Source: Candidatus Rifleibacteriota bacterium (GTDB taxonomy: Bacteria; Riflebacteria; Ozemobacteria; Ozemobacterales; Ozemobacteraceae). From it: a DNA stretch of 12,590 bases. The translations under genes were made by a program, and so were the position numbers. A model generated the notes under the pieces. That model made no database searches. It was given only the letters and a program-made list of their open reading frames with translations, and was not told the DNA's origin. The stretch covers positions 1 to 12,590 of the forward strand of contig JAKQOH010000011.1 in assembly GCA_029565415.1 (NCBI GenBank), read 5' to 3'. Positions 1 to 12,590 of this stretch are shown in pieces. Every line of letters starts with the position of its first letter. The first letter of the stretch is position 1.

Positions 1-1030
1 CGTATCCCTGGCTTCCCATCGCCTGCACCGCGAAATCCGCGACGGCGAAGGCCGCCTCGGTGCAGTACACCTTGGCGATGGCCGTCTGGACGAACGAGGA
101 ACCCTTGCCGCCCGCCTGCTCGACCGCGCGCCAGACGTGCAGCCGCGACGCCTCGACCCGCAGCGCCGCGTCGGCGAACCGCCACTGGATGCTCTGGAAG
201 CTGCCGATCGGCTTGCCGAACTGCTTCCGGCCCTTGGCATGCTGCGCGGCATCGTCGTAGACCTGCTGGCTGAGACCGGTCGCAATCGCGGCGACCGCGA
301 TGCGCAGCTCGTCCATGAGCTGGTCATACAGGTCGAGACCGAAGCCGTAGGCGCCGATCAGGCTCTCGGGGGCGAGCCGCACCTTGTCGAAACTCACCGG
401 TGCCGCCTCGAGGCCGTTCATGCCCATCGTCTGATGGGGGTTGCCGATCTGGATGCCGGCCGTCTCGCGGGGAATGGCGAACAGGGATGTCGCGGTATCC
501 CCGGCGTCCTCGGCCCGTGCCAGGACGACGATATACGCCGCGCGGCCGGCCCAGTTCACATAGGCCTTGCCGCCCGTGACCTCGAAGGCGCCGTCGGGCA
601 GCTTCCTGCAGACGGTGGACAGGGCGCCGAGGTCGCAGCCGGCTTCCCGCTCCGTCGCGGCGATCGAGAACAGGGCCTTTGCCGAGGCGGCGGCTTTGGC
701 CAGCTCGTTCTTGGAGGCGAAGTTGAACGCCCGCCCGTTCAGGCGGATCCCGAGGACCACCTGCTGTGCGAGAAGGAGGGCCGTTGCCGGGCTGTGCCGG
801 CCGACTTCCTCCAGCAGCACGGAAAGCTGGAACAGCCCGAGCCCTTCACCGCCGAGATCCGTGGGCAGGAATGGCCGCAACAGTTCGCGCTCACCCACGA
901 CGGCCGGAAGATCGTCCGGCAGACGGCCGGTCTCGTCGATGCCGGCGGCAAAGCGGGCGAGTTCCTCGTCCGCGAGGGCACGCCAGGCCGTCTGGCGCTG
1001 CAAATCCTTCTCTTCGAACTCGAAGTTCAC
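1..1030 (-). CDS. Acyl-CoA dehydrogenase, partial (C-terminus beyond the window edge)
   Basis: FAD-dependent acyl-CoA dehydrogenase; the family removes two hydrogens from the alpha-beta carbons of an acyl-CoA and passes the electrons to ETF. I read 343 codons without a stop from a GTG at 1030-1028 to the edge. The N-terminus begins MNFEFEEKDLQRQ. The helical N-domain is followed by the middle beta-domain (ATEREAGCD around residue 150, a divergent form of the usual TE-x-x-AGSD signature; GGKAYVNWAG around 175). The C-terminal helical domain has RKQFGKPIGSFQSIQW near residue 265 and QAMGSQGY at the edge. The catalytic glutamate region, normally after this last motif, is outside the window, so activity cannot be judged. 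An AAGGA lies 10 nt before the GTG. It is the second gene after butyrate kinase (56-nt gap), which suggests short- or branched-chain acyl-CoA metabolism; the exact substrate is not readable. Confidence 0.93.
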   Translation of the reverse strand, partial: MNFEFEEKDLQRQTAWRALADEELARFAAGIDETGRLPDDLPAVVGERELLRPFLPTDLGGEGLGLFQLSVLLEEVGRHSPATALLLAQQVVLGIRLNGRAFNFASKNELAKAAASAKALFSIAATEREAGCDLGALSTVCRKLPDGAFEVTGGKAYVNWAGRAAYIVVLARAEDAGDTATSLFAIPRETAGIQIGNPHQTMGMNGLEAAPVSFDKVRLAPESLIGAYGFGLDLYDQLMDELRIAVAAIATGLSQQVYDDAAQHAKGRKQFGKPIGSFQSIQWRFADAALRVEASRLHVWRAVEQAGGKGSSFVQTAIAKVYCTEAAFAVADFAVQAMGSQGY

Positions 1031-1066
1031 AGGGGTGCGATCCTTTCTTGTCTCGTTGCGTCCCGG

Positions 1067-1086
1067 CCCGAACCGGCCGGTTCGGG
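1067..1086. repeat. 20-nt perfect palindrome between butyrate kinase and acyl-CoA dehydrogenase
   Basis: The sequence CCCGAACCGGCCGGTTCGGG is its own reverse complement. It starts immediately after the butyrate kinase stop (TGA at 1089-1087). As RNA it can form an 8-bp stem with a GGCC loop. No U-tract follows on the minus strand, so it is not a classical intrinsic terminator. It may be an mRNA-stabilising or processing hairpin that sets unequal expression of the two genes, or a dyad DNA site. Confidence 0.75.
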
Positions 1087-2157
1087 TCAGTAGTCCTTGG
1101 CCTGCTCCTCGCCCCGGAGGACGCGGAGTCCGCCCATCGCCAGCGCGGCCAGCTCATCCTCGCCCGGGACGACGACGACACGGCCGATCGGCTCGATATA
1201 CTCTTTTATATATTCCACCAGGTGCGTGCACTTCGCCGCGCCGCCGGTGATCACGAACGCCCGGATGTTGCCCTTCAGGGCCGCGTAATACGAGCCGATC
1301 TCCTTCGCGACCTGGTGAGCCATGCCGAGCAGAACGTTTCGCGCATACTCGTCCCCCTTGTCGATCCGGTCCGAGATCTCGATCAGGTTGCTGGTGCCCA
1401 GATAATTCACGAGGCCGCCGCGGCCGACGACCATCTTCTTCACCTCGGCATGGGTATACTTGCCGCTATAGCACAGGGCCGCGAGATCCAGCGTGGGCAG
1501 CGTGCCCGCGCGTTCCGGCGTATAGGGGCCCGACTCGAGGCCGTTGCTGACATCGATGCACCGGCCGCCCTGGAGGGCAACGACCGAGATGCCGCCGCCG
1601 AGATGGGTCGCGACGAAGTTGTCCTTGCTGAAATCCCAGCCTTCCCGGATACAGGTCTGGCGCACCACGGCGCGGATGTTCAAGGCGTGCCAGATACTTC
1701 GCCGCGGCATCTCTTTCAGGCCGGAGAACCGGGCGATATCGAGCATCTCGTCGACCACGACCGGATCGACGATATAGGCGGGCATGCCGAACTCGGTGTG
1801 GAAGCCGAAGGCAAGCACCGCGCCCAGGTTGCTGGCGTGTTCGCCGTATCTGCCGCTGCGCAGGTCGTCGACCATCTGCTGGCTGACCTTGTAGGTGCCG
1901 CTGACCATGGGTTTGAGCAGGCCGCCCCGGCCGACGACGGCGCTGAGCTCCTTCGGGGCGATGCCCTGCCGGAAGAGAAACGCGAGCATGGCGTCCCGGC
2001 GCATCGGATACTGGTCAAGAATCTTGGGATAGGCTTCGAGATCGGCAGGCGAATGGTCGATCTTCGCCGTGGTCACCTGCTTTTCATTCTCGAAGAGACC
2101 GAGTTTCGTGGTCGTGGAGCCGGGATTGACGACGAGGATTCGAATGGGAGAGCTCAT
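1087..2157 (-). CDS. buk: Butyrate kinase (acetate/propionate kinase superfamily)
   Basis: Catalyses reversible phosphoryl transfer between butyryl-phosphate (or a branched-chain acyl-phosphate) and ADP, a cytoplasmic step giving ATP during acid formation or consuming ATP during acid uptake. The product is 356 residues, typical for butyrate kinases. ASKHA-fold motifs are visible: the N-terminal phosphate loop NPGSTTTKLGLF (about 11-22), VVGRGGLLKP, ATHLGGGISVV, and the C-terminal FVITGGAAK. The ATG at 2157 is preceded by AAGGAAAGGAACC, and a good promoter lies about 100 nt upstream. It is followed by an acyl-CoA dehydrogenase. The usual partner, phosphate butyryltransferase, is not in the window. 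Isobutyrate or another short branched substrate is possible. Confidence 0.95.
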   Translation of the reverse strand: MSSPIRILVVNPGSTTTKLGLFENEKQVTTAKIDHSPADLEAYPKILDQYPMRRDAMLAFLFRQGIAPKELSAVVGRGGLLKPMVSGTYKVSQQMVDDLRSGRYGEHASNLGAVLAFGFHTEFGMPAYIVDPVVVDEMLDIARFSGLKEMPRRSIWHALNIRAVVRQTCIREGWDFSKDNFVATHLGGGISVVALQGGRCIDVSNGLESGPYTPERAGTLPTLDLAALCYSGKYTHAEVKKMVVGRGGLVNYLGTSNLIEISDRIDKGDEYARNVLLGMAHQVAKEIGSYYAALKGNIRAFVITGGAAKCTHLVEYIKEYIEPIGRVVVVPGEDELAALAMGGLRVLRGEEQAKDY

Positions 2158-2264
2158 GGTTCCTTTCCTTGCTTTGACGGGCGGAAGCGGCTTCTTTCTG
2201 TACGGGGGCCCTTCGTGCGCCCGCGGTGGGTGATCGGGTCATGACACCGGGAGAGAACGGACGA
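2158..2264 (-). other. Butyrate kinase 5' leader, no gene seen
   Basis: About 100 nt between the predicted transcription start and the ATG. No open frame with a ribosome-binding site was seen. It holds small GC-rich inverted repeats, such as GAAGC/GCTTC around 2183-2193, but no riboswitch class I recognise. Confidence 0.4.
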
Positions 2265-2293
2265 ATGGTAGCATCGCCCCGGGAACCTGTCAA
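2265..2293 (-). promoter_or_regulatory. Sigma-70-type promoter for the butyrate kinase unit
   Basis: On the minus strand, TTGACA (2293-2288) is followed by a 17-nt spacer and TACCAT (2270-2265). The -35 is a perfect consensus. It lies 20 bp beyond the stop of the upstream metallo-hydrolase gene. Predicted start near 2258, giving a leader of about 100 nt before the butyrate kinase ATG. It suggests that butyrate kinase and acyl-CoA dehydrogenase form their own unit. Confidence 0.72.
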
Positions 2294-2312
2294 ACCGCCG
2301 CCGGTGCCGGGT

Positions 2313-2987
2313 TTACTCCCATTCTCCGGTGAGGAAGGGGTTGTGCGCCGCCTCGTGCGCCATGCGCGTCGCCGGCCCGTGTCCGGGCAGGACGAGCCGG
2401 TCGCCGAGCGGCAGCAGCCGTTCCCGGATCGAACGGACCAGCAGTGCCCCGTCGCCGCCGGGAAAATCCGACCGGCCGACCGAGCCTGCGAACAGGGCAT
2501 CCCCCGTGATCACCACGTCGGGGAAGGCGAGGGCCAGACCGCCCGGCGTGTGCCCCGGCACCGCGATGACCGTGCCCGTCGCGCGGCCGACCGTCAGCGT
2601 GTCGCCGTGGCCGGCGAACGTCTCGGGCGGTCGCGCCGTGAAGGCGGCATCGAGGAACATCGAAAGGTTGAGCCGCGCATCCCCGAGCATGGGGGCGTCT
2701 TCCCGGGAACACAGGACCGGTGCCCCGGTGTGGGTGCGCACGTGTTCGAGGCCGGCGATGTGGTCCGCGTGGCCGTGCGTGAGAAAAATCCGTGTCGTCT
2801 TCCAGGCCAGCTCCTCGAGCCGGCCGATCAGACGAGGATCGTCGTCGGCCGGATCGACGATCAGACCGTCCCCTGCCTCCCGGTCGTACACCAGGTAGGT
2901 GTTGACCTCGAGCGAACCGAGCACGAGGCACTCGATTTCGAGACTGCCGATGGTGTACCGTTTGTTCATGGGGATCGGCCGCCTCAC
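2313..2987 (-). CDS. Metallo-beta-lactamase fold hydrolase, glyoxalase II-like
   Basis: Probable binuclear-metal thioesterase of the glyoxalase II / YcbL group; the natural substrate cannot be read. The metal motif HGHADH is at residues 71-76. Further ligands appear in GHTPGG, GDALFAGSVGRSDFP (bridging Asp) and the final LPGHGPATR. The length (about 218-224) fits the short YcbL-like forms, which lack the long C-terminal glutathione-binding domain of classical GloB. The GTG at 2987 forms a GTGA overlap with the preceding hpt stop. An ATG six codons later (2969), with GAGG 12 nt upstream, is an equally good start and gives MNKRYTIGS. Third gene of the epimerase-hpt-hydrolase unit. No clear terminator follows. 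Confidence 0.9.
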   Translation of the reverse strand: MRRPIPMNKRYTIGSLEIECLVLGSLEVNTYLVYDREAGDGLIVDPADDDPRLIGRLEELAWKTTRIFLTHGHADHIAGLEHVRTHTGAPVLCSREDAPMLGDARLNLSMFLDAAFTARPPETFAGHGDTLTVGRATGTVIAVPGHTPGGLALAFPDVVITGDALFAGSVGRSDFPGGDGALLVRSIRERLLPLGDRLVLPGHGPATRMAHEAAHNPFLTGEWE

Positions 2988-3540
2988 CGCTCTCTCTCGT
3001 AGATATCGGGCTTGAGCACCCCGATGAAGGGAACGTTTCTATAGTAGTCTTTATAATCGAGACCGTAGCCGACGGCGAACTCGCTCGGCAGCTCGAAGCC
3101 GCAGTAGTCGACCCGCACCGGCCGCTGGTGGCACTGGGGCTTGCTGCACAGCGAGCACACTTTCAGGCTCTTGGGGTGCCGCGCCGACAGCAGGTCGATC
3201 AGATACGACAGCGTCAGTCCCGTATCGACGATATCCTCGACGATCAGCACGTTCCGGCCCTCGATGCTCTCGTTCAGGTCTTTCAGGATGCGCACCACGC
3301 CCGAGCTCTTCGTGGCGTGGCCGTAGCTGCTGATCGCCATGAACTCGGTGTTGACGGGCAGCTCGATGTGCCGGCACAGGTCGGCCATGAACAGGAAGGC
3401 GCCCTTGAGGATGCAGACCAGCACGATGGTTTCGCCGGCGTAATCGGCGGTGATCCGGCGGCCCAGCTCGGCGATCCGGGCCTGGATCTCCCCGGTTCCG
3501 ATCAGGACCCGCTCGATGTCCGGATGCGGTGATGTCGACG

Positions 3541-3544
<4 letters not shown>
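2984..3544 (-). CDS. hpt: Hypoxanthine phosphoribosyltransferase
   Basis: Purine salvage enzyme: hypoxanthine (or guanine) plus PRPP gives IMP (or GMP) and pyrophosphate, in the cytoplasm. With the GTG start at 3544 it has 186 residues, the normal size. Visible motifs are [12 protein letters not shown] (about 45-56), the flexible loop [11 protein letters not shown] (72-82), the PRPP-binding [14 protein letters not shown] (99-112; E103, D104, D107) and the base-binding [13 protein letters not shown]. The GTG overlaps the epimerase stop as GTGA and has GGTGAT 7 nt upstream. A longer frame would need a TTG at 3568 and a 28-nt overlap, so I reject it. Translation appears coupled to both neighbours. 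Confidence 0.95.
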
Positions 3545-4476
<932 letters not shown>

Positions 4477-4628
4477 CAGCGATCTCCTGTCTGCGTGATT
4501 GGAAGTGCCTATTCAATCATCCGGTCAGGGAAAAATCAATCGCGATTTCGGGAACTTTTGCCCGGCCGCGCGGTCTGTATCTTCCGAACGATCTCCTCAA
4601 CACCATCGATTCTTCAGGAGGCATCAAC
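4477..4628. promoter_or_regulatory. Divergent intergenic region between the epimerase unit and htrA
   Basis: A 152-nt gap between divergent starts must carry promoters for both sides. Ribosome-binding sites are clear on both strands (AGGAG before 4476 on the minus strand; AGGAGG at 4616-4621 on the plus strand). A TATCTT at 4578-4583 could be an htrA -10, but no good -35 sits at the right distance. Minus-strand TTGATT in the middle of the gap is only a weak candidate. Confidence 0.4.
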
Positions 4629-6152
4629 ATGAACCATCCGCTGATCGGGCGCGCCCGGCTGCGCCTCATCCTGCTCGTCCTTGTCCTGACGGGCTTCCTC
4701 TATGCTGCCGCAACGGCCCAGGCCGAACCCGGCCAGGCGGCCCGCGAGCTCCAGGCGGCCTTCACCAGCGTCGCGAAGAGTCTCAAGCAGAGCGTCGTGA
4801 ATATCCGGATCGAACGCACGATCGGCGGCGGGGCCCAGGGTGACGAAGAAGAAGGTGAAGACCAGTTTCAGGGCACCCCGTTCGAAGACCTCTTCAAGGA
4901 CTTTTTCCGGAACATGCCGCGCGGCCGCCGGTTTGGTCCGCGGGGTCCGAACAAGACCGAAGGCGCGGGGTCGGGCGTGATCTTCGCTGCCGACGGCACG
5001 ATCCTGACGAACAACCACGTCGTCAAAGGGGCCTCGAGCATCACCGTCAAGTTCCATGACGGCCGTGAAGCCCGGGCCAAGGTCGTCGGCCAGGATCCCC
5101 AAAGTGATCTGGCCGTCATCCGCGTGAATGTCGACTTCCCCTTGCAGCCCGCCACGTTCGCCGATTCCGACAAGGTCGAGGTCGGCCAGTGGTGCATGGC
5201 GATCGGCAGCCCGCTCGGCCTCGAGCAGACGGTCACGGTCGGCGTCGTCAGCGCCGTCGGCCGTTCCGGCATCGGCGCCACGGCCATCGAGGATTTCATC
5301 CAGACCGACGCGAGCATCAATCCCGGCAACTCGGGCGGCCCCCTCGTGGATCTCGACGGCCGGGTCATCGGCATCAACACCCTGATCTTCACCGCCCCGG
5401 GGTCGGGAATCGGCTTCGCCATCCCCTCGTCGATGGCTTCCCGGGTCGCCACCCAGATCGTGAAAACCGGCTCGGTCGAGCGGCCCTATATCGGCATCAC
5501 CATGCAGGCCGTCACCTCGGAGCTGGCCGAGCATTACTCCCTTCCCGACAAGTCCGGCGCCGTGGTCATGGATGCGAACTCGGACGCCCCCGCCGCCAAG
5601 GCCGGCCTGAAGCAGATGGACATCATCCGGGCGATCGACGGCAAGGAGATGAAGTCCACGAATGACGTCCAGAAATACATCCTGAGCCGCAACGTGGGCG
5701 ACACCGTCACGATGGAAATCCGGCGCAACGGGGTGAAACACGAGATCCCGGTCAAGCTCGAGCGGATGCCCCGGACGTTCGGCCTGCGTGATCCCGAAGA
5801 CCTCGTCCGGCAGCAGGAAGGGACGAAGGAAAAAGCCGAAACCGCCGAAACGGCTGCCCGCCGGCTCGGCTTCACATGGACGCCGGTGACATCGGATCTG
5901 GCCTCGACCCTGAAGCTCGGCAAAACGTCGGGCATCATCGTGAAGGACGTGAAAGAGGGGAGTCCTGCCGACGAGGCGGGCCTGATGCCCCGGGATGTCA
6001 TCACCCAGGTGAACGGGAAGGCCGTGACGGATGAAACATCGCTGGCAGAGGCGCTGAACCAGCCTTCCGGCACGAAGAAGAGTTCGGTTCTGGTCGTGCA
6101 GCGGAATGGGGCACCCTTGTTTCTCGTCGTTGCCGAGCCGTCGGAACACTAA
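4629..6152 (+). CDS. degP: Periplasmic HtrA/DegP-type serine endoprotease with two PDZ domains
   Basis: Envelope quality-control protease and chaperone that degrades misfolded exported proteins. The product has 507 residues. Signal peptide: positive N-region with R8, R10 and R12, hydrophobic 13-28, likely cut after AQA at 32. The trypsin-like domain has an intact triad: H130 (TNNHVV), D160 (SDLAVI) and S235 (GNSGGPLV). PDZ1 starts near 285 (RPYIGITMQ) and PDZ2 near 412 (LGFTWTP, then GIIVKDVKEGSPADEAGL). The linker before the protease core is acidic and contains a Gly/Arg-rich part (RGRRFGPRGP), like the LA loop of the family. The ATG is placed by AGGAGG at 7-nt spacing. A single gene, ended by a strong terminator. 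DegQ or DegS-like assignment is less likely because two PDZ domains are present. Confidence 0.96.
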   Translation: MNHPLIGRARLRLILLVLVLTGFLYAAATAQAEPGQAARELQAAFTSVAKSLKQSVVNIRIERTIGGGAQGDEEEGEDQFQGTPFEDLFKDFFRNMPRGRRFGPRGPNKTEGAGSGVIFAADGTILTNNHVVKGASSITVKFHDGREARAKVVGQDPQSDLAVIRVNVDFPLQPATFADSDKVEVGQWCMAIGSPLGLEQTVTVGVVSAVGRSGIGATAIEDFIQTDASINPGNSGGPLVDLDGRVIGINTLIFTAPGSGIGFAIPSSMASRVATQIVKTGSVERPYIGITMQAVTSELAEHYSLPDKSGAVVMDANSDAPAAKAGLKQMDIIRAIDGKEMKSTNDVQKYILSRNVGDTVTMEIRRNGVKHEIPVKLERMPRTFGLRDPEDLVRQQEGTKEKAETAETAARRLGFTWTPVTSDLASTLKLGKTSGIIVKDVKEGSPADEAGLMPRDVITQVNGKAVTDETSLAEALNQPSGTKKSSVLVVQRNGAPLFLVVAEPSEH

Positions 6153-6166
6153 CCCTTGTCCCTGCG

Positions 6167-6207
6167 CCGGCCGCTTCCACTCTATGGGAAGCGGCCGGTT
6201 TCATTTT
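6167..6207 (+). terminator. Intrinsic terminator of htrA/degP
   Basis: A perfect 12-bp stem (CCGGCCGCTTCC at 6167-6178 with GGAAGCGGCCGG at 6187-6198) with an 8-nt loop, followed by TTTCATTTT. It begins 14 nt after the htrA stop. Confidence 0.92.
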
Positions 6208-6232
6208 CGGACAAGAATCGTTAACGAACTTG

Positions 6233-6291
6233 CCTGATCAGCCGATACACCGTCCATCCAACTGGTCGTGAACCGACCGTCGCTGATCAGG
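6233..6291. repeat. Inverted repeat with CTGATCAG cores upstream of the small membrane peptide
   Basis: CCTGATCAGC (6233-6242) is the exact reverse complement of GCTGATCAGG (6282-6291). Each arm contains the 8-bp palindrome CTGATCAG; the core centres are 49 bp apart. Between them GGTCG-TGAAC-CGACC can form a small inner stem. The right arm ends inside the AGGAG ribosome-binding site of the 6303 gene. It could act in RNA, hiding the ribosome-binding site, or in DNA as two operator half-regions. A weak promoter candidate (TTAACG, 17 nt, GATACA) overlaps the left arm. Confidence 0.65.
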
Positions 6292-6302
6292 AGTCGCCTC
6301 AC

Positions 6303-6461
6303 ATGATGAAGGAAGTCGTCCTTGCCATCGCACTCACCCTCTTCTTTTCCGTCGGAGTCGGCGTGCTGTTCGTCCGAACCATCATGGAGATGCTGGAGAT
6401 TCTTTTCACGGAATCCCCCTCGCAGCGGGAGCATCACGGGCAGACCGGCAAGGGGAACTGA
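6303..6461 (+). CDS. Small single-pass membrane protein, 52 residues, unknown function
   Basis: I do not recognise a family. The frame starts MMKEVVLAIALTLFF and has a hydrophobic segment at residues 5-24 or so (rich in Leu, Val, Phe). A short amphipathic part follows (RTIMEMLEILFTE), then a polar tail ending HHGQTGKGN. AGGAG lies 9 nt before the first ATG, and codon use is GC-ending like the neighbouring genes (GTC, CTC, ACC, ATC), both of which support a real gene. Its leader holds a striking inverted repeat. It is separated from htrA by the terminator and is convergent with the lipoprotein gene, with 11 nt between stops. It could be an envelope-stress or secretion accessory peptide; that is only a guess. 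Confidence 0.65.
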   Translation: MMKEVVLAIALTLFFSVGVGVLFVRTIMEMLEILFTESPSQREHHGQTGKGN

Positions 6462-6479
6462 CGAGCCGGCGATCAGTTC
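6455..6479. repeat. Inverted repeat spanning two convergent stop codons
   Basis: GAACTGA (6455-6461) pairs with TCAGTTC (6473-6479) around an 11-nt GC-rich loop. The left arm contains the TGA of the small membrane protein and the right arm contains the TGA of the minus-strand lipoprotein. No T-tract is present on either side, so it would be at best a weak bidirectional terminator. Confidence 0.45.
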
Positions 6480-7102
6480 TGGCGGAGAATGCCGTGGAGG
6501 GAGCAGCGGAACAAACGCCGCCCGTCTTTATACACGATCGAGTACTCGCCGCCATCCGGACATCGTGGTGTATCGACAAGTATTTTTTCTGACTTGAGCT
6601 TGTCCGGATCGAACTTGAACATCTTTTTGCCCGTTTTCTTGTCGTAGTACAGGATGGCGAGGATCATCGACTTCATGATCGAGAAGCAGCGCAGCTTCTG
6701 GTCTTCCGCGTAGCTCGAGATCTTTTTCAGGACATCCTGGTAGCGGCGCTGCGCCCGGCCGTATTCGGAAAACATCGACCGATGGGTCTTGATGTCGACG
6801 CTCGGGGTATTGAACGCGTTGATGTTCTGGATCAGGTTCAGGTACGTCTGCTGGAACTCGGTATGCACTTCCTTGAAGCGCACCTGCTCGAACACGCTGC
6901 CTGAGGCGATTCCGGCGGTTGCGGTGGCCGGTCGTGCCTGGGCAGGCCGGGCTGTGCGTGGGGTGGATTCCGGGGGGGTGACTCCGCCACAGCCGCACAG
7001 GAACAGGGCGAACGCCAGGAAACAAAGAACCGGTCCGCATACCAACCGCGTATGCAGACTGAGGGTGATCGACTGCCGGTTCTCGTTCTGGTGACTGTCC
7101 AC
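6473..7102 (-). CDS. Putative lipoprotein with C-terminal pilin-like Cys motif
   Basis: Function unknown. 209 residues from a GTG at 7102. A hydrophobic segment at 20-37 leads to the lipobox LCGC, so Cys38 is the probable lipidated residue. A Pro/Ala/Thr-rich linker (about 42-64) follows, then a predicted helical region (about 72-150) containing QQTYLNLIQNINAF and QRRYQDVLKKISSYAE. The C-terminus has CPDGGEYSIVYKDG with a later RCSLHG (C181, C200, H203). This spacing resembles the tail of many type IV pilin and pseudopilin proteins (CP-GG-Y ... C-S-HG), though no prepilin N-terminus is present. No ribosome-binding site precedes the GTG, but a strong promoter puts the transcript start only about 8 nt away, so translation may be nearly leaderless. 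It is divergent from the FHA-kinase operon, hence possibly functionally linked. Confidence 0.8.
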   Translation of the reverse strand: MDSHQNENRQSITLSLHTRLVCGPVLCFLAFALFLCGCGGVTPPESTPRTARPAQARPATATAGIASGSVFEQVRFKEVHTEFQQTYLNLIQNINAFNTPSVDIKTHRSMFSEYGRAQRRYQDVLKKISSYAEDQKLRCFSIMKSMILAILYYDKKTGKKMFKFDPDKLKSEKILVDTPRCPDGGEYSIVYKDGRRLFRCSLHGILRQN

Positions 7103-7116
7103 GTGCGTGACGGAAC

Positions 7117-7145
7117 ATCTTACCCGCCATAGAGCGAGGTGTCAA
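7117..7145 (-). promoter_or_regulatory. Sigma-70-type promoter for the lipoprotein gene
   Basis: On the minus strand, TTGACA (7145-7140), 17-nt spacer, TAAGAT (7122-7117). Predicted start near 7110, only about 8 nt before the GTG at 7102. Confidence 0.75.
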
Positions 7146-7153
7146 TCGGATCT

Positions 7154-7177
7154 GCGCCGGTCTCGTGCCGCCGGCGC
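7154..7177. repeat. GC-rich inverted repeat between two divergent promoters
   Basis: GCGCCGG (7154-7160) and CCGGCGC (7171-7177) flank a 10-nt loop. The repeat lies just upstream of the lipoprotein -35 and about 50 bp upstream of the FHA-operon -35. It is a possible operator for either or both, but in GC-rich DNA a 7-bp repeat can arise by chance. Confidence 0.35.
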
Positions 7178-7224
7178 CGCGTCTGAGGGTGAATCGTGCT
7201 GGCGGAGCGGATTTGAGCTGTTTG

Positions 7225-7253
7225 TTGAAGCACGAGGGACCCTGTGGTATACT
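7225..7253 (+). promoter_or_regulatory. Sigma-70-type promoter for the FHA-kinase-phosphatase operon
   Basis: TTGAAG (7225-7230), 17-nt spacer, TATACT (7248-7253), with TGG just before the -10 making an extended -10 (TGnTATACT). Predicted start near 7260, leaving a leader of about 28 nt that contains GAGGGGG 7 nt before the ATG. Confidence 0.8.
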
Positions 7254-7287
7254 CCAGCGACTCTTGAGAATTTGAGGGGGAAGCCGC

Positions 7288-8466
7288 ATGGCCGACGAAT
7301 CGAAGAAAACCGTATTCCGGAGGATCGTGGTTCCTGACGAGGAGAAGAAAAAATACCTCGTCGGCAACACGCCGCCGTTTCTCGGCAAACCGTTCGAATT
7401 GTCGCGCGAGGATTTCACGATCGGTCGCGAAGAGGGCCGTTCCCTCCAGATCCCGAGCGACATGGTCTCCCGCCTGCATGCGACGATCGGCTTCAAGGAC
7501 GGCAACTACTACCTCGTCGACAATGACAGCTCGAACGGCACGTTCCTGAACAACAACCAGGTTGCCGCCGCGACGCCGATTCAGCTCAATCACAAGGACG
7601 TCGTCAAGGTCGACACCTACGAGTTCATCTTCATCGATTCTGCCCGCGCCGACCTGTGGGAGACCCTCAAGCCGCTCAACCGCACCGGCGCCCAGATCGT
7701 CACCTTCTACAGTCCAAAGGGCGGCACGGGGCTGACAAGCGTCGTCTGCAACCTGGCCCATGCGATGGCCACGAGCACCAAGAAAAAAGTCGCCGTGGCC
7801 GACTTCAATCTGCGGTTCGGCGACGTACTGACCTATATGGCCGGAAAGCCCGGCCTTGGTATTCATGAACTGATCCAGGATCCCAATATCACGGGCGAAA
7901 CGATCGGTAAGTTCCTCCGTCAGGGGCCTTCCTTCAATTACCTCACGGCTCCCGTCAAGACGGAATACGCCGAGCTGGTGAAGGCGGATCACGTCAAGAA
8001 GATCCTCTGGAGCCTCGAAGCGAATCACGATTTCGTCATCGTCGATCTGAAGAATGAAATCGACGACGTCTCCCTCACGACCTGGGAGATCTCGAACCTG
8101 ATTTACCTCGTTGCCCAGCCGGAAATCGGCCAGATGCTCGCCCTCAAGAAGATTCTCGACATCATGGGACAGCTCAAATATCCCGAGTCGAAGGTGAAGG
8201 TGCTCATCAACCGCCTCGGCCGGCCCGGCACCCTCTCGGCCGAGGAAGTGAAGGCGATCATCAAGCGCGATTTCGTAAGCCTGCCGTTCGCCCCCGAAGA
8301 TGCGGTTCTGACTTCCCACGGCGGCCAGTTGTATGTGAAGGAACGGCCATCGTCAGCTCTTTCCCAGGCCGTGATGAACATTCAGCGCACGATCTGCGGT
8401 GAGGAGACCGTTGCGGCGGTCGAAGGCGGCATCTTCGGCAAGCTCCGCTCAATCCTGGGCTTCTGA
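7288..8466 (+). CDS. FHA domain fused to CpaE/TadZ-like (MinD/ParA superfamily) ATPase with altered P-loop
   Basis: A 392-residue fusion. The FHA domain (about 33-118) binds phosphothreonine peptides in this family. Its key residues are present: IGRE (45-48), S61-R62-L63-H64 and SSNGT (81-85). The ParA-type domain (about 137-370) has the deviant Walker A SPKGGTGLTS. The signature Lys (K144) is kept, but the usual P-loop Lys is Leu149; substitutions at this site are known in CpaE/TadZ proteins. Walker A' is VADFNLRFGD (D172) and Walker B is FVIVDL. LTAPVKTEYAELV and VKVLINR also match CpaE. The C-terminal tail IFGKLRSILGF resembles the MinD membrane-targeting helix. First gene of the operon; the kinase follows after 10 nt. 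It probably reads kinase marks and directs a membrane assembly such as a pilus or secretion machine; the target is not in the window. Confidence 0.9.
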   Translation: MADESKKTVFRRIVVPDEEKKKYLVGNTPPFLGKPFELSREDFTIGREEGRSLQIPSDMVSRLHATIGFKDGNYYLVDNDSSNGTFLNNNQVAAATPIQLNHKDVVKVDTYEFIFIDSARADLWETLKPLNRTGAQIVTFYSPKGGTGLTSVVCNLAHAMATSTKKKVAVADFNLRFGDVLTYMAGKPGLGIHELIQDPNITGETIGKFLRQGPSFNYLTAPVKTEYAELVKADHVKKILWSLEANHDFVIVDLKNEIDDVSLTTWEISNLIYLVAQPEIGQMLALKKILDIMGQLKYPESKVKVLINRLGRPGTLSAEEVKAIIKRDFVSLPFAPEDAVLTSHGGQLYVKERPSSALSQAVMNIQRTICGEETVAAVEGGIFGKLRSILGF

Positions 8467-8476
8467 ACAGACTTCC

Positions 8477-10267
8477 GTGACCGACTACTGCGGGAAGAAG
8501 GCCGGCAACTACACCATCACCCAGAAACTGGGAGATGGCGGATTTGCCACCGTGTACCTCGCCCAGCACACCGTGCTCGAGAAGCGGGCGGCCGTGAAGT
8601 TCCTGCTCGAGGAGTGGGTCAACGAACCCGACGTCGTGAGCCGGTTCTTCGACGAGGCCCGGACGATGGAGCGACTGAAGGAAAGCCCCAACATCGTCGA
8701 GATCATCGACATCGCCAGCAAGGAGATCTGCGATCGCGAAGGGCTTCCCCCCTACTTCATCATGGAGTACATCGACGGGAAGTCGCTCGAGGCGAAGATC
8801 CATTCGGATGAGGGGTTCACGCTCGAGTTCATCGCCGAGGTGATCTCCACGGCCCTCGCGGCTCTTGCCCATTGTCACGACAAAGGCGTTGTACACCGAG
8901 ATATAAAACCGAGCAATATTCTTCTCACCGCCGATGGCAAGGTCAAACTGACGGATTTCGGCATCGCCAAGGCGAAGCTGAACACCAGCAAGACGGGAAG
9001 CGGCCTCACGCTCGGCTCGACGGACTATATGTCTCCCGAGCAGGCTCTGGGGAAGCGCGATCTCGACCACCGCTCCGACATCTACTCGATCGGGGTCACC
9101 TTGTACGAGATGGTCGTCGGAAAGCTGCCGTTCATCTCCGACAACCCCAACTCCGTCGCCTTGATGCACATCCAGGAACCGCCCGTCGCGCCCATCGAGG
9201 CCAACCCCGCCTGTCCTCCGCGGCTGAATCACATCATCCTGAAGGCGATGGAGAAGAAGCGGGAAGACCGCTACCAGACCTGCGAGGAGATGATCGAGGC
9301 GCTCCGTCACATGGACGAGCCGGAAACCCCCGTCACGGCCGATGTCGAGACGGTCGATCTGGCCTCGATGAAGCCCGAGCTCCCCGAGGATGGCCTGAAA
9401 GACAAGGAGGCTGTGCCTCAACCCGGCGACGAGGGGCTGGCTTCCCGGGCCACGACCAAGATCACGCAGAGCCTCGCTTCGAAGCCGGTCCGGAACTCGA
9501 TGTTCATGTTCGGCCTGGTGATCTTTTTCACCGTCCTGTTCCTGGGCATCTTCAAGGGATACAACGCCTACGTCCAGGGGACCATCTCCATCGAAACGAG
9601 CCCGTCGGGCACCGAGATCGCCCTCGACGGCAGGCTTGTCGGCACCAGTCCGATCACCCTTCCGCTGCCGCCCGGCTCATACCGGGTCGTCTTCTCGTTC
9701 CCGGGATATGCCACGGCGGCCGTCAAAGCGGATCTCCCCGAGCATGGGGCTGTCACCGTGCGTCGCGATCTGCGAAAGCTCGTTCCCAACATCGACGCGC
9801 TGGCCGGGAACGCCTTCGAGGGGCTTCCCCGCGCCGCTGACGTCGATTCCCGCAAGAGCCGGCAGGTGGCCCAGCAGACCGACGCCCTACGCCGGATCGA
9901 ACGGTTCCTTTCCCAGTATGACGAGGTGCCGGCGGCCCATCTCGCCTGGGAGCGCCAGGCTGGCGGGCTCGGCTATCTGTCGACGGCCGAAGGCTACTAC
10001 CGGCAGCGGTCTGCCGAACAGCCGCGCAATGTCCTTCTGATGACGATGCTGGGGCGCATCCTGCTGGCCCGCGGGAAGATGAAAGAGGCTCTCGACACCC
10101 TGTCGAACGCCTGGGCCATCGATTCGAACGATATCCTGCTGTTGAACTCGCTCGGGGACTACTTCAAAAAAGAGGGAAGCACCGAGAGGGCGCGACAATA
10201 CTACCAGTTGTCGCTGTATCTCGACCCCGGGCAGACAGCAATTCTCGAGACCCTGAAAGACCTGTAG
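8477..10267 (+). CDS. Transmembrane Hanks-type Ser/Thr protein kinase with PEGA and TPR-like regions
   Basis: Phosphorylates Ser/Thr of partner proteins. About 596 residues from a GTG at 8477. The kinase domain (about 11-275) is complete: glycine loop LGDGGFATVY, K41 (AAVKF), the alpha-C glutamate in FFDEARTMERL, HRDIKPSNI (D142), DFG (D160), activation-segment exit GSTDYMSPEQ and RSDIYSIGVTLYEM. A Pro/Glu-rich juxtamembrane segment, one transmembrane helix (about 342-362, MFMFGLVIFF...) and an outer part follow. The outer part has a PEGA domain (about 368-435; SIETSPSGTEIALDG, PPGSYRVVFSFPGY) and TPR-like helices at the end (from about 505). The GTG has no clear ribosome-binding site and is 10 nt after the FHA-ATPase stop, so translation is probably coupled. 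A GTG at 8399 would add 26 unconserved residues overlapping the upstream gene. The outer segments suggest envelope sensing. Confidence 0.94.
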   Translation: MTDYCGKKAGNYTITQKLGDGGFATVYLAQHTVLEKRAAVKFLLEEWVNEPDVVSRFFDEARTMERLKESPNIVEIIDIASKEICDREGLPPYFIMEYIDGKSLEAKIHSDEGFTLEFIAEVISTALAALAHCHDKGVVHRDIKPSNILLTADGKVKLTDFGIAKAKLNTSKTGSGLTLGSTDYMSPEQALGKRDLDHRSDIYSIGVTLYEMVVGKLPFISDNPNSVALMHIQEPPVAPIEANPACPPRLNHIILKAMEKKREDRYQTCEEMIEALRHMDEPETPVTADVETVDLASMKPELPEDGLKDKEAVPQPGDEGLASRATTKITQSLASKPVRNSMFMFGLVIFFTVLFLGIFKGYNAYVQGTISIETSPSGTEIALDGRLVGTSPITLPLPPGSYRVVFSFPGYATAAVKADLPEHGAVTVRRDLRKLVPNIDALAGNAFEGLPRAADVDSRKSRQVAQQTDALRRIERFLSQYDEVPAAHLAWERQAGGLGYLSTAEGYYRQRSAEQPRNVLLMTMLGRILLARGKMKEALDTLSNAWAIDSNDILLLNSLGDYFKKEGSTERARQYYQLSLYLDPGQTAILETLKDL

Positions 10268-10292
10268 CCGCGAGAGGAGAGGGGGGAGGAAC

Positions 10293-11051
10293 GTGGAATA
10301 CAAGGTATTCGGCCGCTCCGATGTGGGAAAGGTGCGATCGAACAATGAAGATACCTATTTTGCCGCCGACCGTGACGGCGTGTTCCTCGTTGCCGATGGC
10401 ATGGGGGGCCACAAGGCCGGCGAGGTTGCCTCCGGCCTGACCCGCGACGTGCTCGGCGCGAAGCTCGCGAAATTGGATAACGGTGCAAATATAGAGGCGT
10501 CTATTCGAGATGCGTTTCTCGCGGCGAACGAGAGTGTCCGCAACACCGCCTCGACGAACACCGATCAGCAGGGAATGGGGTGCACCTGTGTCCTGCTGAT
10601 GCTGCGCGAGCAGAACTTCTTCATCGCCCATGTCGGCGACAGCCGCGTCTATCTCTTCCGCAAAAGCCAGCTCAAACAGGTGACCCGCGATCACTCCTAT
10701 GTCGAGGAGTTGTTCATCCGGGGCCTCATCAACGAGGAAGAGAAGAAAGGCCACCCCTACCGCAACCAGATCACCCGGTATATCGGCTGCTCGGCGAAGC
10801 TCGAAGTCGATATCACCTCGGGCCCCGTCTGGAACGACGATGTGTTCCTGCTGTGCAGCGACGGGCTCACCGAAGAGGTTGGCGACAAACGGATCCAGGA
10901 GATCTTCGAACAGAACGCCGATCCCGAGGCCTCCGCAAACCGGTTGATCGAAGAGGCGCTTGCGAACGGCGGCCGCGACAACGTTTCCGTAATCGTCGTC
11001 CAAGTGACGGGCAAAAAAACCAGCTTCTTCAAAAAGCTGCTCGGCTGGTGA
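10293..11051 (+). CDS. PP2C-family Ser/Thr protein phosphatase with MinD-like C-terminal tail
   Basis: Metal-dependent phosphatase (PppA/PrpC/Stp type) expected to reverse the action of the adjacent kinase. 252 residues from a GTG with GGGGGGAGGA just upstream. Metal-binding and motif residues are intact: D10 (SDVG), NNED (D20), VADGMGG (D35), HVGDSRVYL (D116), CSDGLTEE (D190) and GGRDN (D229). The usual GMGTT is GMGCT here. The last residues, KKTSFFKKLLGW, are an amphipathic basic tail beyond the normal end of the fold and closely resemble the E. coli MinD tail (GFLKRLFGG), so peripheral membrane attachment is likely. It follows the kinase after 25 nt in the same operon and ends at a GC-rich hairpin. 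Confidence 0.95.
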   Translation: MEYKVFGRSDVGKVRSNNEDTYFAADRDGVFLVADGMGGHKAGEVASGLTRDVLGAKLAKLDNGANIEASIRDAFLAANESVRNTASTNTDQQGMGCTCVLLMLREQNFFIAHVGDSRVYLFRKSQLKQVTRDHSYVEELFIRGLINEEEKKGHPYRNQITRYIGCSAKLEVDITSGPVWNDDVFLLCSDGLTEEVGDKRIQEIFEQNADPEASANRLIEEALANGGRDNVSVIVVQVTGKKTSFFKKLLGW

Positions 11052-11090
11052 CCCCGGGCCGGTGCCCGGGGCCTCTGAACTGCCTCAGAG
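11052..11090. terminator. Hairpins between convergent phosphatase and cNMP-ATPase genes (possible bidirectional terminator)
   Basis: An 8-bp stem, CCCCGGGC (11052-11059) with GCCCGGGG (11064-11071), starts directly after the phosphatase TGA. A second stem, CTCTGA (11073-11078) with TCAGAG (11085-11090), includes the TGA of the minus-strand gene. Neither has a T-tract, so termination is plausible by position but not proven by sequence. Confidence 0.45.
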
Positions 11091-12296
11091 CCCGAACACG
11101 TCCTTGATCATCGAGAACATGTTCCAGGTGCCCTTGTCGGCCTCTTCGCCGACCAGGCAGCGGCACAGCCGCTCCACCGACACGACGAGCGGCGAGTTTT
11201 CCGGTGCGTCGAGAACGAACGGGGTTCCCTTGTTGACCGACGGGATGACGATGTCCCCCTCGCTCGGAATGAAGTAACTGATGGCATAGCGCAGCGAATT
11301 CTCGACGCGCGACGGCTCCAGACCGAGGGTCTTGAAGGCGCGGTTCAGCACCACCTTCACCTTTTCCCGTGGAATTTTCATCCGCTGGAACAGCTCGAGC
11401 AGCAGCTTCGTGTTCTTCACGAACGTCAGCTCCATCGTCATGATCAGCATGACGAGATCGCTGATTTCCAAAAGCCGCAGCTCCAGGTCGGTGAGCTGGT
11501 TGTGGGTGTCGAGGATCACGTAGTCGTAGTTCGCCCGCAGGATCTCGATGATCTGCTCGATGAAGTCGATCCGGATCCGCTCAGCCATCTCGGGAAGCGG
11601 CGGCGGGAGCAGGATCTTGAGCCCCGACTTGTGGGTCGTCAGCTGGGCTTCTATTTTCTCCAACTTGAGCGGCCCCGGAGCGTTGTACAGTTCGTAGATG
11701 TTCCGGTCGTTGGGAAGGCTGAGCAGGATCGCCTGGTCGCCGAACGACAGGTTCAGATCGACCAGCACGACGCGCTTGCGCCACTTTTTCGCGAGCATGA
11801 CGGCCGTGTTGGCCGACAGCACGGACTTGCCGGCCCCGCCCTTCACGTTGAAGAAGGTGACGATCTGGCCGAAGGGTGTCTTGGTCAGCCCCTGTTCGAG
11901 CAGAACGGTGGCTCGGCGGGTGTACTGTTCGCGCAGTTCCCGGGCGAAGCCGGCGTGAAGACCGATCAGGCGGAGAACGTCGTCCTTCGGAATGAACAGG
12001 ATCTGGAACTCCTGGTATCCCACCAGGGTCGTCAGGGCCGGCGTCCCGTTGAGGATCTCCACTTCTCCGTAGGTGTCACCCGGGTCGAGGGTGAACAGGG
12101 TCTTTTTGCGCCCGTCGTGTGTTTTGATGACCGAAAGCTGTCCTTCGACGACGAGGAAAACGTCCTTGATCTCCTCGCCTTCGTTGAGAATCCGGGTGCC
12201 AGACGTGTACTTCTGGATCCGGCAGGTTTTCTTCAGCTTCTCGACTTCGCGGGTCGGAAGCGTGCTGAAAAACGGAAATGTTTTCAGATCGATCAT
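11085..12296 (-). CDS. Cyclic-nucleotide-binding-like domain fused to CpaE/MinD-like ATPase
   Basis: 403 residues from the ATG at 12296 (GAGGA 10 nt upstream; a start at 12401 would precede the promoter). The N-terminal CRP-type beta-roll (about 5-115) includes GTRILNEGEEIKDVFLVVEG and GDTYGEVEILNGTPALTT. The Gly-Glu of the phosphate cassette is there (GE at 78-79), but the Arg that normally contacts the cyclic phosphate is missing (PALTT in place of an R-S/T-A type string), so it may not bind cAMP. The ParA-type domain has an intact deviant Walker A NVKGGAGKS (K152 and K157), Walker A' VVLVDLNLSFGD (D180) and Walker B YDYVILDT. The C-terminal tail MFSMIKDVFGL again resembles a MinD-type amphipathic anchor. 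It is convergent with the kinase operon, has its own promoter and is a paralogue in its ATPase half of the FHA fusion. It could pair with that protein. Confidence 0.9.
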   Translation of the reverse strand: MIDLKTFPFFSTLPTREVEKLKKTCRIQKYTSGTRILNEGEEIKDVFLVVEGQLSVIKTHDGRKKTLFTLDPGDTYGEVEILNGTPALTTLVGYQEFQILFIPKDDVLRLIGLHAGFARELREQYTRRATVLLEQGLTKTPFGQIVTFFNVKGGAGKSVLSANTAVMLAKKWRKRVVLVDLNLSFGDQAILLSLPNDRNIYELYNAPGPLKLEKIEAQLTTHKSGLKILLPPPLPEMAERIRIDFIEQIIEILRANYDYVILDTHNQLTDLELRLLEISDLVMLIMTMELTFVKNTKLLLELFQRMKIPREKVKVVLNRAFKTLGLEPSRVENSLRYAISYFIPSEGDIVIPSVNKGTPFVLDAPENSPLVVSVERLCRCLVGEEADKGTWNMFSMIKDVFGL

Positions 12297-12333
12297 CGCT
12301 TGAACATCCTCGGCGTGGATTTCGACACGGGCG

Positions 12334-12363
12334 AGTATAGATTGACAGGGCGTGTTCCTGCAA
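12334..12363 (-). promoter_or_regulatory. Sigma-70-type promoter for the cNMP-ATPase gene
   Basis: On the minus strand, TTGCAG (12363-12358), 18-nt spacer, TATACT (12339-12334). Predicted start near 12327, about 30 nt before the ATG at 12296. The -10 hexamer is identical to that of the convergent FHA-kinase operon. Confidence 0.65.
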
Positions 12364-12590
12364 CCTCTTTGATTCCCTGCCCCGTTCTTCCGCTCGAACA
12401 CCCGATCCGAAACCGGTTACACCACAAATACACAAAGACACGAAAGAATACGCACCACAGAGATACTCCGTTGAAATTTCCCTCGGATTCAAGAACGCAT
12501 CCGCAGATGGAGGGCAGATGAACGCAGATGAAAAACCAGAGAGGAACGAACGCCTGGCCCCCCCTTGTATCCAGTATGCGCCGCAAACTC
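12364..12590. other. Gene-free right edge
   Basis: Upstream of the cNMP-ATPase promoter no convincing gene was found. The stretch holds the degenerate repeat and about 50 nt of unassigned sequence to the edge. A frame on the minus strand (12293-12586) translates the repeat and overlaps the promoter, so I do not call it. Confidence 0.5.
12415..12540. repeat. Degenerate short-period intergenic repeat
   Basis: From 12418 the plus strand has a run of short CA/GA-rich units (ACACAAAGACACGAAAG, CACCACAGAGATAC). A second block then has three copies of GCAGATG about 10-11 nt apart (around 12500-12527). Such strings, and their reverse complement (CATCTGCGTTCATCTGC), match from memory a dispersed intergenic sequence common in many environmental bacterial genomes. 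Open frames across it on either strand look spurious. The base composition is clearly more A-rich than the genes. Confidence 0.6.

Follow-up and report, generated by a model that had tools for sequence, protein, structure and literature searches.

A conserved four-gene block in Riflebacteria with an FHA-CpaE-type ATPase, a Hanks-type kinase, a PP2C phosphatase and a CNB-type ATPase: a candidate phosphothreonine-gated membrane module

The window analysed here is a stretch of 12,590 nucleotides (positions 1 to 12,590 of the forward strand) of contig JAKQOH010000011.1, from a Candidatus Rifleibacteriota bacterium (assembly GCA_029565415.1). It contains four adjacent genes that encode a forkhead-associated (FHA) domain fused to a CpaE-type ATPase (FHA-ATPase), a Hanks-type Ser/Thr kinase, a PP2C phosphatase and a second CpaE-type ATPase that carries a cyclic nucleotide-binding (CNB)-type domain (CNB-ATPase). 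The block recurs across most genomes of its class, with the reader, writer and eraser sites intact. We propose that its products form a phosphothreonine-gated, membrane-associated module of the CpaE type that serves the cell envelope, a proposal whose chances we judge to be evenly balanced. A previous sequence-only reading of this DNA had described the four genes as a candidate membrane phospho-switch governing where or when a pilus or secretion machine is assembled. All four parts that it named were recovered by Pfam and NCBIfam matches and by fold; control of the site or timing of assembly may indeed be the function, although the evidence given below moderately favours the envelope as the output.

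The distribution of the block was surveyed in 39 genomes of the phylum Riflebacteria, 24 from the class of Ozemobacter sibiricus and 15 from outside it, with a presence threshold of E <= 1e-60. FHA-ATPase was found in 18 of the 24 class genomes and in none of the 15 others, the kinase in 17 class genomes and full-length CNB-ATPase in 15. Five more CNB-ATPase matches outside the class reached only 209-226 bits and covered mainly the ATPase part. Among the best 80 of 316 FHA-ATPase loci, 18 align from query residues 1-22 onward, and the remaining 62 align only from residue 121 or later, which is essentially the ATPase part. Those close homologs that bear a name come mostly from Candidatus Ozemobacteraceae and Riflebacteria. 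Two Riflebacteria-type orthologs are on stretches titled Methylomirabilis (L005) and Erysipelotrichia (L014); the corresponding genomes, G005 and G027, are in the Ozemobacter class list, G027 holds the same contig stretch as L014, and the titles are probably wrong.

Gene order is conserved as well. The genes for FHA-ATPase and the kinase are next to each other on the same contig in 16 of the 18 genomes; in G027 the contig breaks, and in G011 the neighbour has just 30% likeness to the kinase, and that in part only. Kinase and PP2C adjoin in 17 genomes, and the genes for PP2C and CNB-ATPase lie side by side and converge in 13 of the 15 genomes for which this could be determined. The CNB-ATPase gene lies on another contig in G010 and G014, and no full-length CNB-ATPase was found in G001, G011 or G028. 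In G004 the four genes remain together while the queried neighbours are gone from both sides, except for a 38% NamZ-like match 16 kb away, and in G009 they remain together with a different upstream side. Because the arrangement recurs across most genomes of the class, it is not a product of chance, and the possibility that the four genes are neighbours in this genome only can be set aside.

Three of the genes form a run on the plus strand (7288-11051) and the fourth converges on them from the minus strand (11085-12296), so that a single operon of four genes, which we considered, is ruled out (Table 1). The FHA domain matched PF00498 at E=2.3e-17. The MinD/ParA-type half of the same protein stayed under the Pfam cut-offs (AAA_31, 21.9 vs 27 bits) and is clear by fold. 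The kinase, which probably starts at the GTG at 8477, gave a Pkinase match at 6.7e-49 and sub-threshold matches to TPR repeats. PP2C scored 259.7 bits against the Stp1/IreP model, above the cut-off of 230, and belongs to that family. CNB-ATPase, whose ATG is at position 12296, matched cNMP_binding (1.5e-15) and AAA_31 (5e-11). No tRNA or Rfam features were found in the window.

Table 1. Features of the four-gene block and its conserved upstream neighbours (window coordinates)
Feature	Positions	Strand	Length	Description	Basis
FHA-ATPase	7288..8466	+	392 aa	N-terminal FHA fused to CpaE/TadZ/MinD-type deviant ATPase	Pfam/NCBIfam, 86 homologs, AlphaFold2 model
FHA domain	7417..7608	+		Pocket G46 R47 S61 H64 N83 intact	PF00498
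Deviant Walker A KGGTGLTS	7717..7740	+		Signature Lys kept, Leu at P-loop Lys position
FHA-ATPase C-terminal tail GGIFGKLRSILGF	8425..8463	+		Candidate membrane-targeting helix
Hanks-type Ser/Thr kinase	8477..10267	+	596 aa	One transmembrane segment, predicted extracytoplasmic PEGA and TPR-like repeats
Kinase predicted transmembrane segment	9497..9553	+			Hydropathy
Kinase PEGA domain	9578..9769	+			PF08308, E=2.6e-12
Stp1/IreP-type PP2C phosphatase	10293..11051	+	252 aa		NF033484
PP2C C-terminal extension ...TSFFKKLLGW	11010..11048	+		Beyond catalytic domain; candidate membrane tail
CNB-ATPase	11085..12296	-	403 aa	Degenerate CNB-type domain and CpaE-type ATPase with canonical KGGAGKS P-loop
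CNB-type domain without phosphate-binding Arg	11964..12215	-
CNB-ATPase C-terminal tail GTWNMFSMIKDVFGL	11088..11132	-		Candidate membrane-targeting helix
Small membrane-anchored or lipoprotein-like protein	6473..7102	-		Conserved neighbour	No Pfam/NCBIfam family match
DegP/HtrA-type periplasmic protease	4629..6152	+		Conserved neighbour	TIGR02037 over cut-off; synteny

The FHA domain has the residues of a phosphothreonine reader. At the positions that we take to form its phosphopeptide pocket, Gly and Arg are present in 83 of 84 homologs (one has a gap) and Ser, His and Asn in all 84; at the sequence level the pocket is not dead, and binding is predicted. The ATPase to which it is fused had been described as being of the positioning type. 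The fusion is real, and the AlphaFold2 model has the fold of the MinD/ParA family, with 3ea0 as the best solved match in Foldseek, tied with MinD in a second alignment. The ATPase itself, however, is a deviant one: the P-loop Lys is replaced by Ile, Leu or Val in 86/86 homologs, while the signature Lys is retained in 84/84. The Foldseek match 3ea0 likewise lacks the P-loop Lys (KGGDGGS).

CNB-ATPase differs in this respect, since KGGAGKSV is found in 85 of its 88 homologs (the pattern was not found in the other three). Both proteins are CpaE-type, as the earlier description of two CpaE/MinD-like ATPases had it, but the intact P-loop belongs to CNB-ATPase alone. Its input domain is degenerate. 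The position of the phosphate-binding Arg is occupied by Ala, Ser, Cys, Thr, Val or Ile in each of the 81 homologs, of 88, in which it could be read, and because this Arg is absent, sensing of cAMP or cGMP is doubtful. The name cNMP-ATPase given to this protein before is thus apt for a cNMP_binding-type domain on a CpaE-type ATPase, but not for a canonical ligand site (Arg in 0/81). The structural model of CNB-ATPase is weak (mean pLDDT, the predicted local confidence score, of 71), and Foldseek returned mostly CNB domains for it, with 3ea0 at rank 43.

The enzymes that would write and erase the mark also have intact sites. Across 17 sequences the kinase does not vary at its Lys, Glu, HRD, DFG or activation-loop threonines, and HRD and DFG are found in 89/89 homologs; the metal-site aspartates of PP2C are invariant in 15 sequences. 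With the FHA pocket, these residues make up a conserved and intact reader, writer and eraser set tied to CpaE/MinD-type ATPases, much as first proposed. A transmembrane segment was also predicted by hydropathy in 11/11 kinase orthologs scanned, and since PEGA and TPR are placed after this single predicted segment, they should be extracytoplasmic. A VD[LI] stretch precedes the segment. Against the PknB-PASTA model the kinase scored 321.9 bits over its first 350 residues, under the cut-off of 450, and it has PEGA instead of PASTA. PASTA matches, on whatever protein, occurred in 12/12 genomes.

FHA-ATPase, CNB-ATPase and PP2C all end in short tails rich in Phe and Leu with Lys (in relatives, ...GGIFSKLKSILGF, ...GTWNMFSLIKEVFGL and ...TSFFKKILGW), and the tails of these three soluble proteins resemble the membrane anchors of CpaE and MinD. 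Behind a variable linker, F383, K385 and L386 of FHA-ATPase are invariant in 23 sequences, as are G389, T390, W391, M393, F394, V400 and G402 of CNB-ATPase. The models show a terminal helix in each ATPase (a short one at 383-390 in FHA-ATPase; 394-401 in CNB-ATPase), both at pLDDT under 50. FHA-ATPase of G011 has a longer C-terminal end. The PP2C family model stops at residue 237, and the tail falls outside the catalytic domain; its form is retained in 11 of the 15 distinct orthologs whose end was seen. A fixed sequence pattern for the tails matched only that of FHA-ATPase. Membrane targeting by the tail is likely for both ATPases and plausible for PP2C.

A tree of 68 ATPase domains, unrooted and carrying a long-branch warning, placed FHA-type and CNB-type proteins in one clade each (100/100 for both); the two are not sisters, and both branch among CpaE-type sequences. 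The FHA clade groups at 99/91 with L019, L143 and L145, of which L019 and L143 are CNB-ATPases. A recent tandem duplication of the two block ATPases is ruled out by their separate clades and by this grouping of the FHA clade with other paralogs. In Riflebacteria, a single genome has several CpaE-type ATPases that differ in their input domains. The relatives in L143 and L019 are CNB-CpaE proteins without the cyclic-nucleotide Arg, those in L142 and L144 are of the CNB-CpaE type with P-R kept at the Arg site (by eye), and those in L141 and L146 are receiver-CpaE proteins. A separate CpaE-type protein stands beside a T2SSE ATPase of CpaF-like length (456-466 aa) in 11/11 genomes covered by the searches for both, the receiver on this protein having been Pfam-checked for the G003 copy only.

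We hypothesize a Ser/Thr-phosphorylation module with two CpaE/TadZ-type proteins of the MinD superfamily as its reader and effector. Where CpaE/TadZ proteins usually have an N-terminal receiver, one of the two has FHA and the other a degenerate CNB. The kinase would span the inner membrane and sense the state of the envelope through its PEGA and TPR-like repeats, and once active would phosphorylate itself or a membrane partner on threonine. FHA-ATPase would bind this phosphothreonine mark. As FHA-ATPase has the dimer-type signature Lys and lacks the P-loop Lys, it is probably a scaffold or partner and not a strong ATPase, and CNB-ATPase, with its intact P-loop, would supply the nucleotide cycle. 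Both ATPases and PP2C would be held at the membrane by their similar tails, and PP2C would reset the mark. As output, the module would most likely set where or when the envelope (peptidoglycan) is synthesised and remodelled.

The neighbouring genes bear on this output. Past the end of the window CNB-ATPase is usually followed, in order, by an SH3x3 protein (its EntFM-like NCBIfam match is far under the cut-off), two proteins with hydrophobic N-termini and no Pfam family, the exo-muramidase NamZ, FolC and a class A penicillin-binding protein (PBP). Of 13 loci examined, 10 had PBP1A near CNB-ATPase, those of the two rearranged genomes (G010 and G014) among them. On its other side the block is flanked by HtrA and the small membrane protein, and in both rearranged genomes the latter is near CNB-ATPase, beside PBP1A. 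This small protein and its relatives in L001-L018, L139 and L140 end in CP.GG.YS..YKDGRR.F.CS.HG, which we take to be reminiscent of clostridial pilin-like C-termini. Two guesses about the downstream genes were abandoned: tadABC, suspected from gene lengths, gave way in Pfam to the SH3 protein and the two proteins without families, and a Mur ligase suggested by Pfam was shown by NCBIfam to be FolC. Overall, the conserved neighbours moderately favour a role in the envelope over one in a pilus.

In the alternative closest to the earlier reading, what the module governs is a pilus of the type IV or Tad kind or a machine like that of type II secretion, with FHA or CNB in the receiver's place for signal input. 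The CpaE-type ATPases and their tails are in keeping with it, and each of 12 genomes had 17-34 matches to T2SSE-family ATPases. In G010 and G014, CNB-ATPase has a PilB-like/PilM-like pair at a distance of about 10-11 kb, but each genome holds so many secretion ATPases that such proximity, seen in two genomes that are alike, may be coincidental. A PilB-like query, however, gave no match at the 18 FHA loci (searched with flanks of at most 10 kb, shorter where a contig ended, and without a separate CpaF-type query), no Tad pilus genes were recognised among the annotated neighbours of the block, and a separate CpaE stands beside the CpaF-like ATPase in 11/11 genomes. A pilus or secretion machine as the output is unlikely in our view. 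The absence of visible type VI secretion genes, remarked on earlier, extends to the sheath gene VipB, found in 0/12 genomes by a search in which the E. coli control matched. In the rearranged genomes (L140, 5409-8267 and 12463-14730, and the same in L139), genes for a clostripain-type peptidase, PBP1A, a Clp-type AAA ATPase and the PilB/PilM-like pair are seen near CNB-ATPase.

The envelope reading can be pressed further, to a form that we offer as speculation and rate as unlikely. FHA-CpaE without its P-loop Lys would pair at the membrane with the canonical CNB-CpaE, possibly as a heterodimer in which its signature Lys completes the active site of the partner, and upon envelope sensing by the PEGA kinase the pair would direct peptidoglycan synthesis by PBP1A. 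A CpaE positioning system would then have been converted from pilus to cell wall and from receiver to Ser/Thr-phosphate input.

Another alternative is general envelope-stress signalling of the PknB/Stp1 kind, with FHA-ATPase as one substrate and CNB-ATPase as an unrelated convergent neighbour. In its favour, PP2C scores over the Stp1/IreP cut-off, the kinase gives a sub-threshold match to the PknB-PASTA model, and the CNB-ATPase gene has the opposite orientation and, in G010 and G014, a different location. Against this, the convergent adjacency holds in 13 of 15 determinable genomes even where the flanks differ, and the two ATPases occur together in 15 class genomes, neither being found at full length in the 15 genomes that represent the rest of the phylum; we consider this alternative improbable. 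That the module is a Min/MipZ stand-in, positioning the divisome in bacteria without a recognisable MinC, is very improbable: the best folds include MinD, the tails are MinD-like and MinC_C was not found over cut-off in 12/12 genomes (two weak hits fell below threshold), but neither the block nor its annotated flanks revealed a division gene, other ParA/MinD-like matches occur in each of 14 genomes and many bacteria without MinC have no known substitute for it.

Several observations weigh against a membrane-associated module for the envelope. Six of the 24 class genomes gave no FHA-ATPase match, their completeness not being given; five of these have other CpaE-type matches, and all six have FHA domains. 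In 3 of the 13 loci no PBP1A turned up in the roughly 16-18 kb covered on that side, and metabolic genes (hpt, FolC and a butyrate kinase-like gene) are syntenic too, which makes the neighbours alone weak evidence for the cargo. Loss of the P-loop Lys is not special to the FHA fusion, because it is common among other CpaE-type relatives: the Lys is missing in 30 of 55 read (5/6, 1/17 and 24/32, the last set having been chosen for likeness to FHA-ATPase), with Cys, Thr, Ser, Arg or Asn instead. The loss is a recurrent trait of the CpaE family by sequence comparison, and what marks the FHA type is its uniformly hydrophobic replacement. Nor does it prove that nucleotide binding is lost. A heterodimer of FHA-ATPase and CNB-ATPase is only a guess, as they are not sister paralogs. 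The tails raise further doubts. Four of the 15 PP2C orthologs end differently, three with an acidic extension (G008, G009 and G024) and the fourth in another way (G013). Hydrophobic moment did not separate the tails, with 25-55% of 415 background proteins scoring as high as the window's three, and 53% of the same proteins reached the moment of the E. coli MinD tail. A looser compositional test, devised after the tails had been seen, was passed by 14 of 394 background open reading frames, six of them block PP2Cs (8 of the 388 others), and was failed by 4/11 FHA, 2/7 CNB and 1/7 PP2C family tails.

The targets that FHA domains connect to Hanks kinases are usually metabolic enzymes, transporters or secretion machines, and FHA readers are known for kinases of the PknB/Stk1 type. 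GarA is named as such a partner (PMC6213207). The block resembles PknB/Stk1 with Stp1/PrpC in that a transmembrane Hanks kinase with extracytoplasmic domains adjoins an Stp1-type PP2C, but its kinase has PEGA/TPR instead of PASTA and its reader is fused to a CpaE-type ATPase. The PpkA/PppA/Fha switch of type VI secretion also has a kinase, a PP2C and an FHA protein encoded together; in contrast to that system, the 12 genomes here have no sheath gene and the FHA domain of the block is carried on an ATPase. The nearest published set of the same part types that we found is in variants of type VII secretion, which have a kinase, a PPM phosphatase and FHA, to which T7SSf adds a TadZ-like receiver-ATPase; its authors suggest phospho-control of the machine (PMC11217815). 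In those systems the carrier of FHA is the FtsK-type ATPase EssC or a DUF6382 protein, and the TadZ-like protein bears a receiver, unlike in the block (PMC11217815). No type VII core genes occur among the annotated neighbours of the block, no dedicated genome search having been made. The block proteins also differ from MinD in being FHA or CNB fusions in genomes with no MinC over the cut-off.

No description of an FHA-CpaE fusion was found in open-licence papers with a limited set of search terms. Such a fusion of FHA with a CpaE/MinD-type ATPase at the level of a class, next to its kinase and phosphatase, would give Ser/Thr phosphorylation a direct connection to positioning inside the cell. 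The block ATPases also resemble CpaE/TadZ of Tad pili, which share an N-terminal signal domain, a ParA/MinD-type ATPase with a deviant Walker A and a short C-terminal tail. The deviant motif is shared by FHA-ATPase, whereas that of CNB-ATPase is canonical, and the block has FHA or an Arg-less CNB in place of the receiver, with no Tad genes recognised beside it. The fusion also suggests that CpaE proteins offer a versatile framework in which receiver, FHA and CNB can be exchanged as input domains; several of these are present side by side in single genomes here.

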